Source: an uncultured Opitutales bacterium (lineage in GTDB: Bacteria > Verrucomicrobiota > Verrucomicrobiia > Opitutales > Intestinicryptomonadaceae). Taken from it: a DNA stretch of 64,000 nucleotides. Every line of letters starts with the position of its first letter. Position 1 is the first letter of the stretch. The notes beneath the pieces are model-generated. The model saw only the letters and a list, made by a program, of their open reading frames with translations. It did no database searches and had not been told where the DNA came from. A program made the translations under genes and the position numbers. Where the stretch lies: contig CALXLK010000009.1 of NCBI GenBank assembly GCA_944389175.1, forward strand, positions 1-64,000, in the 5' to 3' direction. Of this stretch, positions 13,515 to 58,179 are shown piece by piece.

Positions 13515-13520
13515 AACATC

Positions 13521-13558
13521 AAAAAAGAAGCGCCCATATCGGGCGCTTCTTTTTTTTT
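13521..13558 (+). terminator. Terminator of argH
   Basis: A 10-bp stem, AGAAGCGCCC (13526-13535) with 13541-13550, has a 5-nt loop and is followed by T9. It sits 10-15 nt after the argH stop. Confidence 0.93.
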
Positions 13559-13559
13559 G

Positions 13560-13740
13560 CCCCGAACATCGGAGGGAAAAGAAGAGCAGGCAGAAACGTG
13601 GAGTGGTGAGGTGGAAGGAGAAAAAAAAGAGTAGTCAGAGAGAGTGCTTTGGTGGATGGGTGGGAGAAAAAAAAGGGGAAAAAAGGAAGTTAGAGGACAA
13701 AAAAGAAAGCCGAGAACGCCGCGCCAAAGCTGAAATATCT
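13560..13740 (+). repeat. Purine-rich intergenic block A
   Basis: About 180 bases of almost pure G and A on the plus strand, with very few C, between the convergent ends of argH and the DUF5696-like gene. It contains GTGGAGTGG (13598-13606), a word repeated exactly in blocks C (42311) and F (53431). The short reading frame across it is Lys/Glu/Arg low-complexity and not credible as a gene. Confidence 0.5.
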
Positions 13741-13760
13741 AATAGTTTGACGTTTCGTAA

Positions 13761-13791
13761 AAAAAACGCCGCCGAAAAGAATTCGGCGGCG
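13761..13791 (-). terminator. Terminator of the DUF5696-like gene
   Basis: A 10-bp stem, CGCCGCCGAA (13767-13776) with TTCGGCGGCG (13782-13791), is followed on the minus strand by eight Ts, about 30 nt after the stop codon. Confidence 0.92.
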
Positions 13792-13823
13792 AGCCTGCCA
13801 TCAAATTAACATGCCATAAATTT

Positions 13824-31229: not shown

Positions 31230-31289
31230 ATGCGGAACTCTTAAGTAGAGCATCCCCTGCCGCAGCGATTATTCCGCCGTTTGGCAAAT

Positions 31290-31320
31290 AAAAAACGCTT
31301 TAACTTTGATAGCGTTTTTT
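31290..31320 (+). terminator. Terminator of the GH13 gene
   Basis: AAAAAACGCT (31290-31299) pairs with AGCGTTTTTT (31311-31320) and a further T-rich run follows (31321-31333). It lies 60 nt after the GH13 stop. Confidence 0.82.
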
Positions 31321-31333
31321 TTCTCTTTTTTTT

Positions 31334-31425
31334 CGCGGTGAAGATAATTGGGAAAGAAAAAGCAGAGCAGAGAGAGAAAAAAAGGGAAAAAACGCAAAAA
31401 TGCAATCGGCGCAAAAGCCGCCACT
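31334..31425 (+). repeat. Purine-rich intergenic block B
   Basis: A GA-rich, C-poor stretch on the plus strand between the convergent ends of the GH13 gene and the exported beta-rich protein gene. It resembles the other purine-rich blocks in composition and position. It lacks the GTGGAGTGG word. Confidence 0.4.
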
Positions 31426-31522
31426 CCTCATCGACAGTTTTAATTTTTTATGGATTAAAAATGTCTGCCGCGGCGCAAAAGCCGCTACCATTAGGCAAAA
31501 TGTTGCATGCTTGCTAACAGGG

Positions 31523-31560
31523 AAAAAAGAACGGGGCTGCCGCAAATTCGGCAGCCCCGT
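31523..31560 (-). terminator. Terminator of the exported beta-rich protein gene
   Basis: A perfect 12-bp stem, ACGGGGCTGCCG (31531-31542) with 31549-31560, is followed on the minus strand by a TTCTTTTTT tract, 15 nt after the stop. Confidence 0.92.
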
Positions 31561-31574
31561 TTTAAGAAAGAGAT

Positions 31575-41333: not shown

Positions 41334-42125
41334 CTATTTGCCGAGCTGGCTTTCGACAGCCTCCTTTGCCATCTTCTCCATAATAGCGTAGCATGCTGCG
41401 GTCGGGTGGACGCCGTCTTTTGCCATGTCCGGGTCCAGACCCTTTTGGGCGTTTGCAAGTTTCGAGAAATAGTCGAGGTACAATATGGAATTTTTCTGCG
41501 CGTAATCCTTTAGCATGGCGTTTATCTTGGCTATGCTTTCAACGGACTTAATCTGGGGCCTCCACCTGTAGCTTGACGCCGGCAATATCGAGCATATGAT
41601 GGGCTTTACCGAGTTGGCCTTGGCTATTTCGCACATCGATATCACATTGCCCACGACATTTTCTTCGGCAATATATCCGCTGTTGCGCGCCACGTCGTTT
41701 GTGCCTGCAAGTATTAGAACCACCTGCGGTTTGAGAGCGAGAACGTCGTTGCGAAAGCGCACGAGCATTTGCGAGGTAACCTGACCGCTTATGCCGCGGC
41801 CAACGTAATTATTCTCGGAAAAGAAGTTCGGCCGAACCTTGGCCCAAGCATCGGTAATGCTGTCTCCCATAAACACGGCAACCGGCGCTTTCTTTAATTC
41901 GGCGTTGTCTTTGGCATATCTGGAAAAATTCGCAGCGTCCTCGTTATACATGTAGTCGATTGTCTTTATAGTCCACGGATACGTCCTTTTCTGGGGCTTT
42001 TCCGCTTGCGCCTTCTGTTGGGCCGGATTGCCCGCCGGCTTCCGAGCCGCCGCGTTTACATTTGCGGCGAATCCGAGCGCGCAAAAAATCAAAACAACAA
42101 AAATTTTTATCTGCCGTGTGTTCAT
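41334..42125 (-). CDS. Exported SGNH/GDSL-family hydrolase
   Basis: A 263-residue secreted esterase-like protein, starting at 42125 so that the signal peptide (QIKIFVVLIFCALGFAANVNA) is directly N-terminal. Block I is GDSIT (catalytic Ser89), block II GRGISGQ (oxyanion Gly), block III GTND (Asn143), and block V DGVHP (Asp237, His240). All catalytic residues are present. SGNH enzymes of this length often deacetylate glycans or act as rhamnogalacturonan acetylesterases. It is divergent from the large GH2 gene, so they may be co-regulated in glycan breakdown. A weak GC hairpin (41282-41304) lies after the stop. Confidence 0.9.
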   Translation of the reverse strand: MNTRQIKIFVVLIFCALGFAANVNAAARKPAGNPAQQKAQAEKPQKRTYPWTIKTIDYMYNEDAANFSRYAKDNAELKKAPVAVFMGDSITDAWAKVRPNFFSENNYVGRGISGQVTSQMLVRFRNDVLALKPQVVLILAGTNDVARNSGYIAEENVVGNVISMCEIAKANSVKPIICSILPASSYRWRPQIKSVESIAKINAMLKDYAQKNSILYLDYFSKLANAQKGLDPDMAKDGVHPTAACYAIMEKMAKEAVESQLGK

Positions 42126-42480
42126 AGGAATGCTCTCTACCACCGCCCCCGCGGTTTTTCAACCATAAAAAGAGCAAAGTCGCATTGCGCCCGAAAGGAA
42201 ACATCGCAAAAAAAATGAAAGGCGCTGGAGCGCACGCCTTTGACCGCCCTTTTATGATGTTTTTAAGCAAGTTCTTTTTCAAAATACACCCGCGGCAGAG
42301 CGCTGTATGGGTGGAGTGGAAAAAAAGCTAGGCTAAAAAACTTTATAAAACTAAAAAGCACGACAGCTTTGAATGAACCACAAAGGCGAAGAACAAAGGC
42401 GCGTTTGCCAGAAGCGGGAAAAGAATGGATGAGAACCCGAAGCTATTACAAAACGCGCCGCGCGCGCGGCAAGTTGCAAA
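42126..42480. other. Divergent intergenic region with purine-rich block C
   Basis: This lies between the divergent SGNH and GH2 genes. The plus strand has a purine-rich patch with GTGGAGTGG (42311-42319) followed by A7, the same word as in blocks A and F. I see no ORF. Promoters for both genes should be here. Confidence 0.45.
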
Positions 42481-42484
42481 AATA

Positions 42485-45955
<3,471 letters not shown>

Positions 45956-45981
45956 ATTTCCAAATGCTTGCATCCTTCTTG

Positions 45982-46009
45982 CGGCGCGCGTTTGCGCGCC
46001 GTTTTTTTT
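45982..46009 (+). terminator. Terminator of the GH2 gene
   Basis: An 8-bp GC stem, CGGCGCGC (45982-45989) with GCGCGCCG (45994-46001), loop GTTT, then T8. It lies 27 nt past the stop. Confidence 0.94.
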
Positions 46010-46084
46010 GCGAATCATTTTATTAAATCCAAAAAGTTTCTCCAGAAGGGGCAATTAGCGTATTTCTCCCAAGATAGGCAGTCT

Positions 46085-46215
46085 TTTTTGCCTGTGTGTA
46101 TAGGGGTGGAAGAGAAAAAAGGAGAGAAAGAGCGCCAGTAGGATGGAAAAATACGGGGAAAGATGGGTAAATGGGAAAAAGAAAAAAAGCAAACGGCAAG
46201 GATGTAAATAGCGGC
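46085..46215 (+). repeat. Purine-rich intergenic block D
   Basis: A GA-rich, C-poor block between the GH2 terminator and the first chemoreceptor-like gene. It contains AGGGGTGGA (46102-46110, also in block F), AAAAATACGGGG (46147-46158) and GGGGAAAGATG (46155-46165, also in block E at 50922-50932). There is no coding potential on either strand that I would trust. Confidence 0.5.
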
Positions 46216-46291
46216 GGCAAATAAGAGTTTTTGCAGGCGTTTTTTTGGGGCGTGGAAAGTGGCGGAAAAATTCCGCGCGGTGAGATTACGC

Positions 46292-46319
46292 TTGATACGT
46301 GGCAAATATGCTATTTAAT
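46292..46319 (+). promoter_or_regulatory. Possible promoter of the chemoreceptor pair
   Basis: TTGATA (46292-46297), a 16-bp spacer and TTTAAT (46314-46319), followed by the start codon 22 bp later. Both boxes match 5 of 6. Confidence 0.45.
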
Positions 46320-46340
46320 GGAGCGCGGTTTTGAATAGGA

Positions 46341-50746: not shown

Positions 50747-50799
50747 AAAAAATGCGCATAGAGGCAGGAAAATACCCGCTTGCATTTTATCGCAACGCT

Positions 50800-50945
50800 C
50801 AAACAATCCGCCTCAGTTTCCCGTATGTTTCGTGATTTTTAAGCAAAGAGCGCTTTTTGCTCGCTGCCGGTAAAAGATGGGCGGATGTATATCGACCTCC
50901 CCCCGCGCGAAATGGGAATAGGGGGAAAGATGTGGAAAGGGTAAG
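50800..50945. repeat. Purine-rich intergenic block E
   Basis: This lies between the convergent ends of receptor 2 and comM. CATACGGGAAA occurs on the minus strand (50827-50817), and GGGGAAAGATG (50922-50932) is shared exactly with block D. The plus strand is GA-rich from 50910. Confidence 0.4.
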
Positions 50946-50972
50946 CCGCGCAGTTGCGCCAAAAATCCGGCG

Positions 50973-53092: not shown

Positions 53093-53854
53093 GGGGAAAA
53101 AAGTACCCGACGCAATATTCCGCCCGACTCCGCCCTTTTTGAAAACCGCCTAAAATTCTCGAAGCAAAGACAAGAATAAAAAGCGCACATGAATATAGCC
53201 CAAGTATTAACGGAGCATCGGCTGCATTTTATACATTGCGTGTAAATAAATTTTACGTTTTTAAATTAATATATAACTTATAAAATTTTGCCGCCCGCGC
53301 ACCGCTCGCGCGTTTTTTTTCGCCCAATTCCAGGGGTGGATTGGGAAAATACGGGAAGAGAACCAAATCTATATGGGAAGGGGGAAAGTGTGCGTGGTAG
53401 CGCGTACATGTATGTGGCGGTAGTTTTTGTGTGGAGTGGGGAGAGGGAAAAAATTAGAGATGGAGAAAAAAAAGGAAAAAGGCGGGAAGGAAAATAAAGA
53501 GGAAAGATTGCCTTTTTGTGTAAGCGAGTGTTTTTTTGTGCGGCTATGAATGAGTGAAGATTGGATGAAACGGGAAAGAGATAGTGTGTGTTCTTTTTTG
53601 AAAAAAAAGATAATAAGAGTTTAAAAAGAAGATGAAAGGCAATGCAACGAATATAAAACGCGGCGCAGGGCGACATAATTTTTAAAGGCTTGCAATATTT
53701 GCCATCGCCCCGCTTCCCTTTTCTTTCCGCGCAGACATCCAATCAAATACAACTGCCGCTAAAAGACTGCAAAAATCAAGACACGCCCATCTGAATATAT
53801 TGAAAAAATACAAATATACCCTGCCGCCCTTCCGAAAAACCTCCGTTGCATGGA
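53093..53854 (+). repeat. Long gene-free stretch with purine-rich block F
   Basis: About 760 bases between the convergent ends of the PncC-like gene and the mutase operon. From about 53325 to 53600 the plus strand is strongly GA-rich and C-poor. It contains AGGGGTGGA (53332-53340), AAAATACGGGAAG (53346-53358), GTGGAGTGG (53431-53439) and GGGGGAAAG (around 53380). It is the longest of the purine-rich blocks and shares words with blocks A, C, D and E. The antisense reading frame across it is low-complexity and I do not call it a gene. Confidence 0.5.
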
Positions 53855-53884
53855 CAAAAAAAACGCCGCTTTGAAAAAGCGGCG
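53855..53884 (-). terminator. Terminator of the methylmalonyl-CoA mutase operon
   Basis: A 9-bp stem, CGCCGCTTT (53864-53872) with AAAGCGGCG (53876-53884), followed on the minus strand by T8. It is 24 nt past the stop. Confidence 0.92.
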
Positions 53885-53907
53885 CGAAAATTTTGTGCGA
53901 AAGAAAA

Positions 53908-56088
53908 TTAAGCCTCGAGAAGTTCGAGCATTTTCTTTGCGGAATCGGCGATCTTTGTGCCGGGGCCAAATATTGCGGCTGCGCCGTGGTCGAAGAGGAA
54001 CTGGTAGTCTTGGACGGGAATGACGCCGCCGACAACGACCATGATATCCTCGCGGCCGAGCTTTTTGAGCTCCTGAACCAGCTGCGGCAACAGAGTCTTG
54101 TGGCCTGCGGCCAGCGAGCTCATGCCGACAATGTGGACATCGTTTTCGACGGCCATCTTTGCCGTTTCTTCCGGAGTCTGGAACAGGGGACCGACATCGA
54201 CGTCGAATCCGAGGTCGGCATAGCCCGTGGCGACAACCTTTGCGCCGCGGTCGTGGCCGTCCTGCCCCATTTTTGCTATGAGGATTCTCGGCTTGCGGCC
54301 TTCGCGAGCCTCGAACTTTTTAATCATGTCGGCGATTTCGTTCACAGTCTTTATGTTGTTTGCGTTCTTTGTCAGTTCCTTGCCGTATACGCCGTCGATA
54401 GAGCGGATTACGGCCTTATAGCGGCCAAATACCTTTTCGCAAGCCATGGATATTTCACCCAAGCTCGCCCTGGCTTTCGCGGCCTCGACGCTCAATTCGA
54501 GCAGGTTGCCCTTGCCCGTAGCAGCGCAATTTGTAATCTCGTCAAGTATGCGGCGAACCTGAGCGTTGTCGCGGTTTGCGCGCAGCTTTTCAAGCTTGCG
54601 TATCTGAGCCTCGCGCACGGCGGTATTGTCGATGTCGAGAATGTCCAGCGGCTGCTCCTTTTCGAGCCTGTATTTCGTCAGGCCTACAATCGTCTCCATT
54701 CCGCCGTCGATTCTGGCCTGGCGGCGCGCCGAAGCCTCCTCAATGCGCAGTTTAGGCAGACCAGCCTCAATGGCCTTCGTCATGCCGCCGTGCTCTTCGA
54801 CTTCGCTGATGTGGTTCCACGCCGAGCGCGCCAACTCGTCGGTCAGCTTCTCTACGTAGTATGAACCGGCCCACGGATCGATTACGCGGCAAATGCCGGT
54901 CTCGTCCTGCAAATACAGCTGCGTGTTGCGGGCAATTCTCGCGGAGAAGTCGGTCGGCAAAGCAATCGCCTCGTCGAGGGCGTTTGTGTGCAAGCTCTGG
55001 GTGTGGCCCAAAGCCGCGCCCATGGCCTCGACGCACGTGCGCGTTACGTTGTTGAACGGATCCTGCTCCGTCAACGACCAACCCGATGTCTGAGAGTGCG
55101 TGCGCAACGCAAGGCTCTTGGGATCCTGCGGATCAAAGCCCTTTACGATTTTCGCCCACAACATTCTCGCCGCGCGCATCTTGGCAACTTCCATGAAGTA
55201 GTTCTTGCCTATCGCCCAGAAGAACGACAGACGCGGAGCGAACTGGTCAACCTTCAGCCCGGCCTTTATGCCTTCGCGCAAGTATTCCAAACCGTCGGCA
55301 AGCGTGTAGGCCATTTCCAAATCGGCCGTGGCGCCCGCCTCCTGCATGTGGTAGCCCGAAATCGATATGCTGTTAAACTTGGGCATGTTCTTCGACGTGT
55401 ACGCAAAAATATCGCCGATAATCTTCATCGAGGGCGTCGGCGGATATATGTAGGTATTGCGCACCATGAACTCTTTGAGAATGTCGTTCTGAATTGTTCC
55501 GGCAAGCTGTTCAAGCTTTGCGCCCTGCTCCAAACCGGCCACAATGTAGAAAGCCATAATCGGCAAAACAGCCCCGTTCATCGTCATCGAAACCGATACC
55601 TGCGAGAGCGGGATTTTGTCAAAGAGGACTTCCATGTCCATAATAGAGTCTACTGCCACGCCCGCCTTGCCGACGTCGCCAACGACGCGCGGATGGTCGG
55701 AGTCGTAGCCTCTGTGGGTGGCCAAGTCAAACGCGATCGAAAGCCCCTTCTGGCCGGCGGCCAAATTGCGCCTGTAAAACGCGTTGGATTCCTCCGCCGT
55801 CGAGAAACCGGCGTACTGGCGAACCGTCCACGGGCGAACAACATACATAGTCGCATACGGCCCGCGCAAGTACGGGGCAATGCCCGCCGTAAAATCGAGG
55901 TGCTCAAGACCCTCGTAATCCGCCTTCGTATAAAGGGGCTTTACTCGGATGCGTTCCATCGTATCGGCAACGAGCGAATCGGCAGAAACCCCCGTTGCAT
56001 TCTTTACTGCGTCCTCCCACTGCTGTTGCGAAACTTTGTCGGAGGAAAACTCCAATCCAATCTTACTAAAATCAGGATTCTTGTTCAT
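53908..56088 (-). CDS. mutB: Methylmalonyl-CoA mutase large (catalytic) subunit
   Basis: A 726-residue adenosylcobalamin enzyme that converts succinyl-CoA and methylmalonyl-CoA into each other. The barrel domain has the family opening [25 protein letters not shown], then [16 protein letters not shown], and [15 protein letters not shown]. The C-terminal B12-binding domain (from about 590) has [15 protein letters not shown], with the His that binds cobalt. All residues typical of the active subunit are present. It follows the small subunit by 18 bp with an AAAGGTG ribosome site. No cobalamin riboswitch is seen. Confidence 0.97.
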
Positions 56089-56106
56089 CTATACAACACC
56101 TTTCTA

Positions 56107-58179
56107 TTATAGAACGCCGAGGTCGCTCAAAACCGATTTTAAGACCTCGTAGTTGTTGCTCTTTATATTGATGAAGCCGTCGCAACCGGCGCCTCTGTAG
56201 ACGGGCTCGAGCTCTTCCGGAGCGGCCCCTGCCATATATACCACGCTCTCGGGCTTTAGCGCCTTTATCGCCTTAGAAACGGCAGGCACCAATTCCGGAT
56301 ACGTAGCGTCGGTGGAACAAATTACGGCGTACTTGCAACCGCTGTCGGCAAACGCCTTTGCGGCGGCGTCGGCATCGGCGAATCCGTTGGGGTAGACAAC
56401 GTCGAAACCGCCGACCTCAAAGAAGCCGCGGATAAAATCTGCGCGAATCTTGTGCTGGACAAGCGGGCCCATCGTCGCCAAGAAAATCTTGGGCGCCGAA
56501 CCGTTCTTTGCCTTGTAGTCGGCGCTGGCCACGCGCAGTTTTTCAAAGTGCTCCACAGCCCTGTGGATGTCGAGGGGCTTTACGCTTTCAGAAGCGTTGC
56601 ACTTGCAAACAGCCTGGCGCATTTCGCCAATCGAGGCGCCCTTTTCGGCGGCCTCTGCGAGCTTTTCCATGCCGCATTTGGGGCAAAGCTTGCCTATCTC
56701 GACCTCCTTGCGGGCAGCGGAAACCGCCGCAGAACGATCCTTAAAGACTTTTGCCAGATCGTCGCAGTTGGCAGGAAGCGGCTTTTCGGTCATGTTCGCG
56801 TAGTTGTTTGTACCCACGACAGAGCTCCTGCGGCTGTCGTACCCCTTGCGGCGAAGCGCCGAAACAGCTGCAATTTTGTCCTGGACGAAACCCGATTTCA
56901 AAGCCTCGAGCATACCGCCGAGCTTTTCTATCTCGACGAACATATCCCATGCCCTCTGGGCGACAGCGCGCGTGAGCGTCTCGACGTAATACGAGCCGCC
57001 AGCCGGGTCAGCCACGTCGGAAAGGCCGCATTCCTCTTGAAGGATAACCTGCTGGTTCCTTGCAATGCGCTCCGAGAATTCGTCGGGCTTGCGTATGATT
57101 TCGTCAAAGGCGCCTACCGTCATGGAATCGGTGCCGCCGATTACGCCGGAGAAAGCCTCCGTGGCGGTTCTGAGCATGTTGACATACGGGTCGAACTTCG
57201 TCTTGTTGAAGAACGCCGTGCGCGCGTTTACCTTTATTTTCAAGGAGTCGCCAGTGCCGCCGAAAGCCTTTACCATGTTGGCCCACAGCACTCTGGCCGC
57301 CCTGAATTTTGCAATTTCCATGAAGAAATTCGAGCCGAGCGCGAAACGGAACCTGACCAATGCGGCCACGTCGTCTATTTCCATGCCGCGCTCGAGCATT
57401 GCCCTAATATAGTAGGAAGCCGTGGCCATTGCGCAGGCCAATTCTTCGACGACGCTCGCGCCGGCCGAGGAATAGGGCATGGTGTCGACGCCTATCGCGC
57501 CGAACTGCTTGGCGTTTTTGGCGCAGTACGAGGCAATCATATGCATTTCGTTGAGCGCGCAATCCATGGAGCGCGGAAGAGAGCCGCCCGAAGCCAAAGT
57601 GCCCAGGGGGTCGAACCTTATTCCGCCTGATATCTTTTTGCCGACGGAGGCCGCCAGGAACGCAGCAAACACGGGTGCAGCTGAGGATTGTGTTGAAATG
57701 TTAACGTCGACGCACTCAAGCGCGACGCCCTTGAGGGCTTTTTTGAAATCTTCGGCCGTGCTGATTGACAAACCGCATGCTCCGACATCTCCCTCTTTGG
57801 ACTTATCCGCATCGATGCCGTTTGCCGAGGGCTTGTCGAGGACAATTTCGATGGAAGTCTGCCCCTTGTTCAGGGCGTCGAGAATCTTTGCGTTAAATTC
57901 CTCGGGCGTGGCCGCCGAAAGCTCCTGAGAAATAAGCCACGGCTTTGTCTTGTTGCCGTCGGGTTTTACGCCCCTGACAAAATCTCCGAATCCCGGAGGC
58001 GTCGGTTCAAAATCGACGTCTGAACGGTTGTATATCGGCTTCAACACGATACCCTCGGGGGTCTTCGTGTTCATTTTCTTGTCAAACGGAGCACCTTTTA
58101 GAAGTTTTTCAGCCGCGGCGTACCATTCTTCGTACGTAGCCGGCTTGAACTCCGAAAATAGAGACTGTTTGTCTTGCAT
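56107..58179 (-). CDS. mutA: Methylmalonyl-CoA mutase small subunit
   Basis: The 690-residue non-catalytic beta subunit of the heterodimeric mutase. It has the barrel and B12-like domains, but the cobalt-binding DxHxxG is replaced by LVQHKIRADF, as normal for MutA. The N-terminal FSEFKPATYEEWYAAAEKLL and the TKPWLISQE block are typical. AAGGAAG lies 4 nt before the ATG. A possible promoter lies about 85 bp upstream (TTGACT at 58286-58281 on the minus strand with a weak -10). It is first in the operon, as usual. Confidence 0.95.
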   Translation of the reverse strand: MQDKQSLFSEFKPATYEEWYAAAEKLLKGAPFDKKMNTKTPEGIVLKPIYNRSDVDFEPTPPGFGDFVRGVKPDGNKTKPWLISQELSAATPEEFNAKILDALNKGQTSIEIVLDKPSANGIDADKSKEGDVGACGLSISTAEDFKKALKGVALECVDVNISTQSSAAPVFAAFLAASVGKKISGGIRFDPLGTLASGGSLPRSMDCALNEMHMIASYCAKNAKQFGAIGVDTMPYSSAGASVVEELACAMATASYYIRAMLERGMEIDDVAALVRFRFALGSNFFMEIAKFRAARVLWANMVKAFGGTGDSLKIKVNARTAFFNKTKFDPYVNMLRTATEAFSGVIGGTDSMTVGAFDEIIRKPDEFSERIARNQQVILQEECGLSDVADPAGGSYYVETLTRAVAQRAWDMFVEIEKLGGMLEALKSGFVQDKIAAVSALRRKGYDSRRSSVVGTNNYANMTEKPLPANCDDLAKVFKDRSAAVSAARKEVEIGKLCPKCGMEKLAEAAEKGASIGEMRQAVCKCNASESVKPLDIHRAVEHFEKLRVASADYKAKNGSAPKIFLATMGPLVQHKIRADFIRGFFEVGGFDVVYPNGFADADAAAKAFADSGCKYAVICSTDATYPELVPAVSKAIKALKPESVVYMAGAAPEELEPVYRGAGCDGFINIKSNNYEVLKSVLSDLGVL

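Follow-up and report, generated by a model that had tools for sequence, protein, structure and literature searches.

The window analysed here is a 64-kb stretch (C9:1-64000) of an Opitutales MAG, presumably from a gut (32 contigs, 2.29 Mb), and a convergent gap near its 53-kb position raises the question of what kind of element fills it. An earlier note had grouped the block in this gap with other C-poor and purine-rich intergenic blocks into a family that lies on one strand and favours convergent gaps. The family proved to be real; the observation as first framed was partly confirmed and its first interpretation partly supported. The two main features, a base order that passes from T/G through G to G/A and an orientation with the lagging strand, were absent from that description. 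Relatives of a protein encoded in the window were found in Opitutales (Verrucomicrobiota), mainly in MAGs. Altogether 2.18 Mb of the 2.29-Mb genome was read, in pieces, and genes (n=1605) were called with a home-made hexamer model, which misplaces some starts but delimits gaps well enough for the tests used. A two-state segment model was run over 877 gaps.

Purine-rich blocks of the window

Table 1. Blocks and elements of the window, with coordinates, strand and context.
Feature	Position	Strand	Remarks
Strongest element	53409..53507	+	two-state score 40.0
Whole C-poor block around strongest element	53325..53640	+	convergent gap 53093-53907
Second element	13644..13709	+	score 29.6; within C-poor block 13552-13729; convergent gap
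Purine block with short TGTGTGTATAGGGGTGG K part	46070..46220	+	found in looser scans; under two-state threshold
Purine-rich block 3' of a T-tract, without K-tract; weak member	31334..31425	+	convergent gap
Very short GGGTGGAGTGGAAAAAAA stretch; doubtful member	42305..42328	+	divergent gap
Short AGGGGGAAAGATGTGGAAAGGG stretch; doubtful member	50900..50945	+	convergent gap

The short words reported to recur among the blocks do so, on the + strand only: GTGGAGTGG at 13598, 42311 and 53431, AGGGGTGGA at 46102 and 53332, and GGGGAAAGATG at 46155 and 50922. Four of the six gaps concerned are indeed convergent (13515-13823, 31230-31574, 50747-50972 and 53093-53907); the other two are a divergent gap (42093-42571) and a tandem one (45956-46340). 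All six had been called GA-rich. In the gaps starting at 13515, 31230, 45956 and 53093 some 60-base stretch reaches at least 85% purine (85-92%); the blocks at 42300-42330 and 50900-50945 are very short. In the remaining 22 gaps of the window the purine maximum of such stretches is at most 78%, and the skew is therefore not a general property of gaps.

Only the two scored elements of Table 1 pass the genome-wide two-state model. The strongest consists of a GT-rich K-tract up to a junction at about 53447 and a GA-rich R-tract from there to its end. The C-poor block around it is preceded by an intrinsic-terminator-like hairpin (53296-53312) and is flanked by a CinA-domain gene (end 53092) on one side and a methylmalonyl-CoA mutase gene (- strand, 3' end 53908) on the other. 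The latter belongs to a pair of adjoining methylmalonyl-CoA mutase subunit genes (53908-58179, - strand), the neighbours of which differ in congeners. A search of the window against Rfam returned two tRNAs only.

Architecture and genomic context of the tracts

The genome carries about 44 intergenic tracts of low complexity, with a typical length of 60-200 bp. On the C-poor strand they run from T through GT repeats, a G-run and G/A to A (K to R), and many of the 84 mainly non-coding C-poor blocks of the genome are ordered as T-run, GTGTGT, G-run, GAGAGA and A-rich sequence. In a scan with two adjoining 35-base halves (35+35), non-coding DNA gave 27 GT-to-GA and 3 GA-to-GT sites, and 14 and 0, respectively, once the threshold was tightened; coding DNA had no K-to-R site. 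The earlier statement that the coding regions around the blocks are free of the skew stands for the ordered pattern; unordered purine-rich blocks do occur in coding DNA (39 of 123 blocks). The two-state model gave 44 sites against 13 of reversed order at score 20, and 26 against 5 at score 30 (877 gaps); Markov-shuffled gaps yielded no elements at any threshold used.

At the junction, averaged over 24 strong sites, the share of A goes up from 0.06 to 0.58 and that of T drops from 0.35 to 0.04, with a G peak just before, in a profile that is sharpened by the way the junction was chosen. In 38 of 43 K tracts T lies ahead of G (p 1e-7), and these tracts have a clear period of 2 (lag-2 identity 0.607 vs 0.411 expected). 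The apparent enrichment of words was lost when corrected for composition, with 458 shared 9-mers between elements vs 487.5 +/- 22.8 expected. Only words of 11 or more bases exceeded a second-order simulation, which is the pattern expected of simple repeats.

Tracts occupy the longer gaps (median 647 vs 307 bp). Their preference for convergent gaps was upheld genome-wide (17/39 elements vs about 25%, p 0.008-0.015); divergent gaps hold fewer (6/39), and 28/39 are faced by the end of a leading-strand gene. They are also present between tandem genes of either strand and in divergent gaps, with replication orientation unchanged. Their density is uneven: the tracts are spread over most contigs, with none on C8.

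Several structural readings were rejected. BLAST detected no flank homology that would mark shared repeat copies, except at assembly duplicates (C19/C3, contig ends), and no excess of inverted repeats expected of a hairpin RNA or REP-type element was seen (score 8.8 with the own upstream sequence v 8.6 with others). Pairing of K and R halves as a reverse-Hoogsteen mirror (H-DNA) scored 11.42 for own v 11.89 for permuted halves (p 0.93). The halves were uncorrelated as mirror, direct or complementary copies, leaving no sign of a templated fold-back, and a G-quadruplex core (four runs of at least 3 G, loops 1-7) matched only 5 times inside elements. With shared 9-mers at the level set by composition, flanks non-homologous, no inverted-repeat partner and uncorrelated halves, the tracts are neither copies of one repeat nor hairpin RNAs.

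Orientation relative to replication

The replicative strand was assigned by contig GC skew, independently of the elements; the sign of GC skew, third-position skew and gene bias were concordant in nearly all contigs, and the skew-positive strand carries 60% of coding bases. Of the 40 tracts that could be assigned, 39 have their G-rich strand as the lagging strand (p = 7e-11, each element counted), the single leading case being a contig-end artefact. Counted per contig, all 16 were net lagging and none leading, and orientation was coherent within contigs in 42/44 elements, a value reached by 0 of 20000 null draws. The tracts thereby oppose the general GC skew of the genome.

Simple repeats are biased to one replication orientation, as slippage or expansion tracts should be, with (GT)4+ repeats at 2 leading vs 30 lagging and (GA)4+ repeats at 3 vs 35. 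Purine tracts outside the elements are lagging-biased as well (33 vs 10). Leading-sense non-coding DNA has T at 0.304 vs A at 0.263, from which it follows that the lagging sense is A-rich. Non-coding G-runs of 8 or more, e.g. at C7:133322 and C1:78753, are without strand bias (29 leading, 26 lagging). Many of the leading-strand runs sit after terminator-like T-tracts.

Distribution among relatives

A 14+16-base pattern, abundant in the own genome, detected no tracts in 12 readable congeners; this count omits congener G010, which gave no candidates in any search. Comparable tracts were likewise absent from two 200-kb congener samples, in itself a weak test. When orthologous gaps were sought in congeners, synteny of the mutase locus proved not to be conserved. 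A stricter pattern applied to 384 genomes of the class was insensitive, matching only two own-genome elements, and the search was therefore redone at order level with a tolerant pattern. Among 372 genomes of the order, the own genome gave 35 overlapping matches vs 1 for the reversed control, and all other genomes together 29 vs 15. Small clusters of matches were found in one other genus (G617, G619, G633) and in G141 and G318; where readable, matches elsewhere in the order were short and isolated. Taken with their orientation, this distribution suggests that the tracts are peculiar to the lineage and either result from lagging-strand DNA synthesis as a by-product or serve it as a signal.

Possible origin of the tracts

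The best explanation at present, to which a probability of roughly 0.4 is given, is that the tracts were born by slippage or expansion during lagging-strand (Okazaki) synthesis and were tolerated in long gaps; their growth and instability are what we infer from the pattern. An Okazaki fragment with much GT, G and GA could, while nascent, adopt slipped or non-B structures and gain units, whereas the same sequence would be prone to contraction when it lies in the lagging template. With expansion in the one case and contraction in the other, only one orientation would survive. Survival would further be confined to places where extra DNA is harmless, i.e. long, convergent gaps, with the exact sequence free to vary. 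The unit types, single orientation, restriction to tolerant gaps, absence from congeners and contig breaks fit such slippage, and the orientation rule agrees with the one documented for structure-prone repeats (PMC3310812). The missing flank homology and the missing K-R correlation fit independent origins, and the excess of contig ends inside elements (4 vs 0.2 expected) is consistent with length instability. The long G-runs without strand bias count against the slippage reading. The analysis covered one genome of the species.

The replication gene set offers a possible background. No DNA polymerase I polymerase domain (PF00476) was found in any member of the genus, and it was matched in 7/41 of the Opitutales relatives sampled, thus missing from most, while a stand-alone PF02739 5'-3' exonuclease of about 300 aa (311 aa ORF) is present in all readable genus members. 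A genus with no detectable Pol I domain and a separate flap-type 5' nuclease probably matures its Okazaki fragments in an unusual way. The absence of the domain could be a permissive background for the tracts; it is no species-specific trigger, since the loss is genus-wide and the tracts are species-specific. It is conceivable, if doubtful, that an active strand-specific process in this lineage, e.g. error-prone filling of gaps at Okazaki junctions where DNA polymerase I is lacking, writes the GT-G-GA tracts on the lagging strand; if true, such DNA writing would leave a directional record of replication across the chromosome. Other lesions and sources were dismissed: loss of mismatch repair is contradicted by intact MutS and MutL, which leaves the slippage reading with no mutator lesion to invoke and counts against it, flap-nuclease loss is contradicted by the presence of PF02739, reverse transcription by the lack of any RVT_1 match in the genus, and a viral origin by the lack of exact matches in viral contigs.

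Slippage alone does not predict that T/G always precedes G/A, so that the K-before-R order is not fully explained and a functional polar signal stays a serious rival. In that case the G-free lagging template (C/T, C-run, C/A) would be a landing site for primase, SSB, restart or segregation proteins, selected in one orientation chromosome-wide. This is possible, given the orientation (39 to 1), the fixed K-to-R order (27 v 3, with T before G in 38/43) and the dispersion over most contigs, but the tracts have no conserved core word and an uneven density, with none on C8. Species of one genus normally have conserved core replication proteins, yet the tracts were not detected in congeners, and known polar signals are short leading-strand words (PMC5993296). 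Sites for a DNA-binding protein, as had also been proposed earlier, are a possible reading of the tracts. A role in transcription is unlikely: either a C-rich, G-poor leading-sense transcript (Rho rut-like) or a G-rich head-on R-loop transcript would stop read-through between genes, in line with the enrichment in convergent gaps and the leading-strand genes ending toward the tracts, but orientation is set by replication and not by genes, and does not change in the 5 cases where both neighbours are lagging-strand genes or in the 6 divergent gaps. The same dependence on replication rather than on neighbouring genes, together with the lack of an inverted-repeat partner, speaks against the 3' RNA elements first proposed.

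The proposal that the tracts derive, as degenerate copies, from a single dispersed or mobile repeat is largely refuted and now very improbable. Shared words of at least 11 bases do exceed the second-order simulation, but these are simple repeats, 9-mers are not above composition, flanks are homologous only at assembly duplicates, and RVT_1 reverse transcriptase is unmatched in the genus. Little probability is likewise left to an ordinary non-coding compositional skew exaggerated by chance, to which T over A in leading-sense non-coding DNA and the lagging bias of purine tracts outside elements would lend themselves; the controls on order and on GC skew largely refute this reading, general GC skew being of opposite sign and shuffled gaps yielding no elements. 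It is hardly credible that poly-G or low-complexity misassembly produced the tracts as an assembly or sequencing artefact. Four contig ends lie in elements, the start of C19 fuses halves of two loci and the end of C7 is pure poly-G, but an artefact cannot know each contig's replication direction (39 to 1), and most elements are located deep within contigs with ordinary flanks.

Comparison with known systems

No description of lagging-strand composite tracts was found in the literature searched, from which subscription papers were mostly absent. AIMS, a class that includes KOPS, consist of leading-strand octamers that become denser toward the terminus (PMC5993296). The tracts resemble them as DNA words strongly biased to replication direction around the chromosome, but are long and of low complexity, have their G-rich strand lagging and occur in gaps only; no short over-represented leading-strand word was recognised among them (39/40 lagging, no shared 9-mer excess). 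The GGGAATC repeats of Xanthomonas and Nostoc are likewise G-rich, mostly intergenic, of many copies and restricted to some lineages, but they are heptamers with no strand preference, as reported for the leading and lagging strands in Xanthomonas (PMC4692102). In CTG/CAG microsatellites, expansion is orientation-dependent, with the structure-prone strand nascent-lagging, and is worsened by flap-nuclease loss (PMC3310812). These too are simple repeats whose growth is set by which strand is nascent lagging; they have one unit, however, in contrast to composite GT-G-GA tracts at dozens of bacterial loci, where growth is deduced from the pattern. Rut sites are C-rich and G-poor. The complementary strand of the tracts is so as well, but tract orientation is set by replication and not by the upstream gene.

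Species-specific, long composite tracts tied almost perfectly to the lagging strand against GC skew differ from the known replication-polar words, which are short and leading-strand. They would either record, as a natural readout, the errors made in lagging-strand synthesis or represent a polar signal so far unrecognised, and both readings are testable in lineages apparently without DNA polymerase I.

Tracts and repeats at contig ends

In C19:1-150 two elements are fused, with the left half matching that of C19:6450 (C19:6400-6560) and the right half that of C3:3911 (C3:3900-3970), a join that is either an assembly chimera or recombination at a tract. In addition, TCGTCAAAGGTAGTGGGATGAGGGTAGAAGAAGTAGAAAAAAAGGGAGGCAAAGAGGACGGAAG, a multi-copy purine-rich sequence, was located at the contig ends C2:1-90, C8:104240-104330 and C12:71790-71888, and also at a C5 end.
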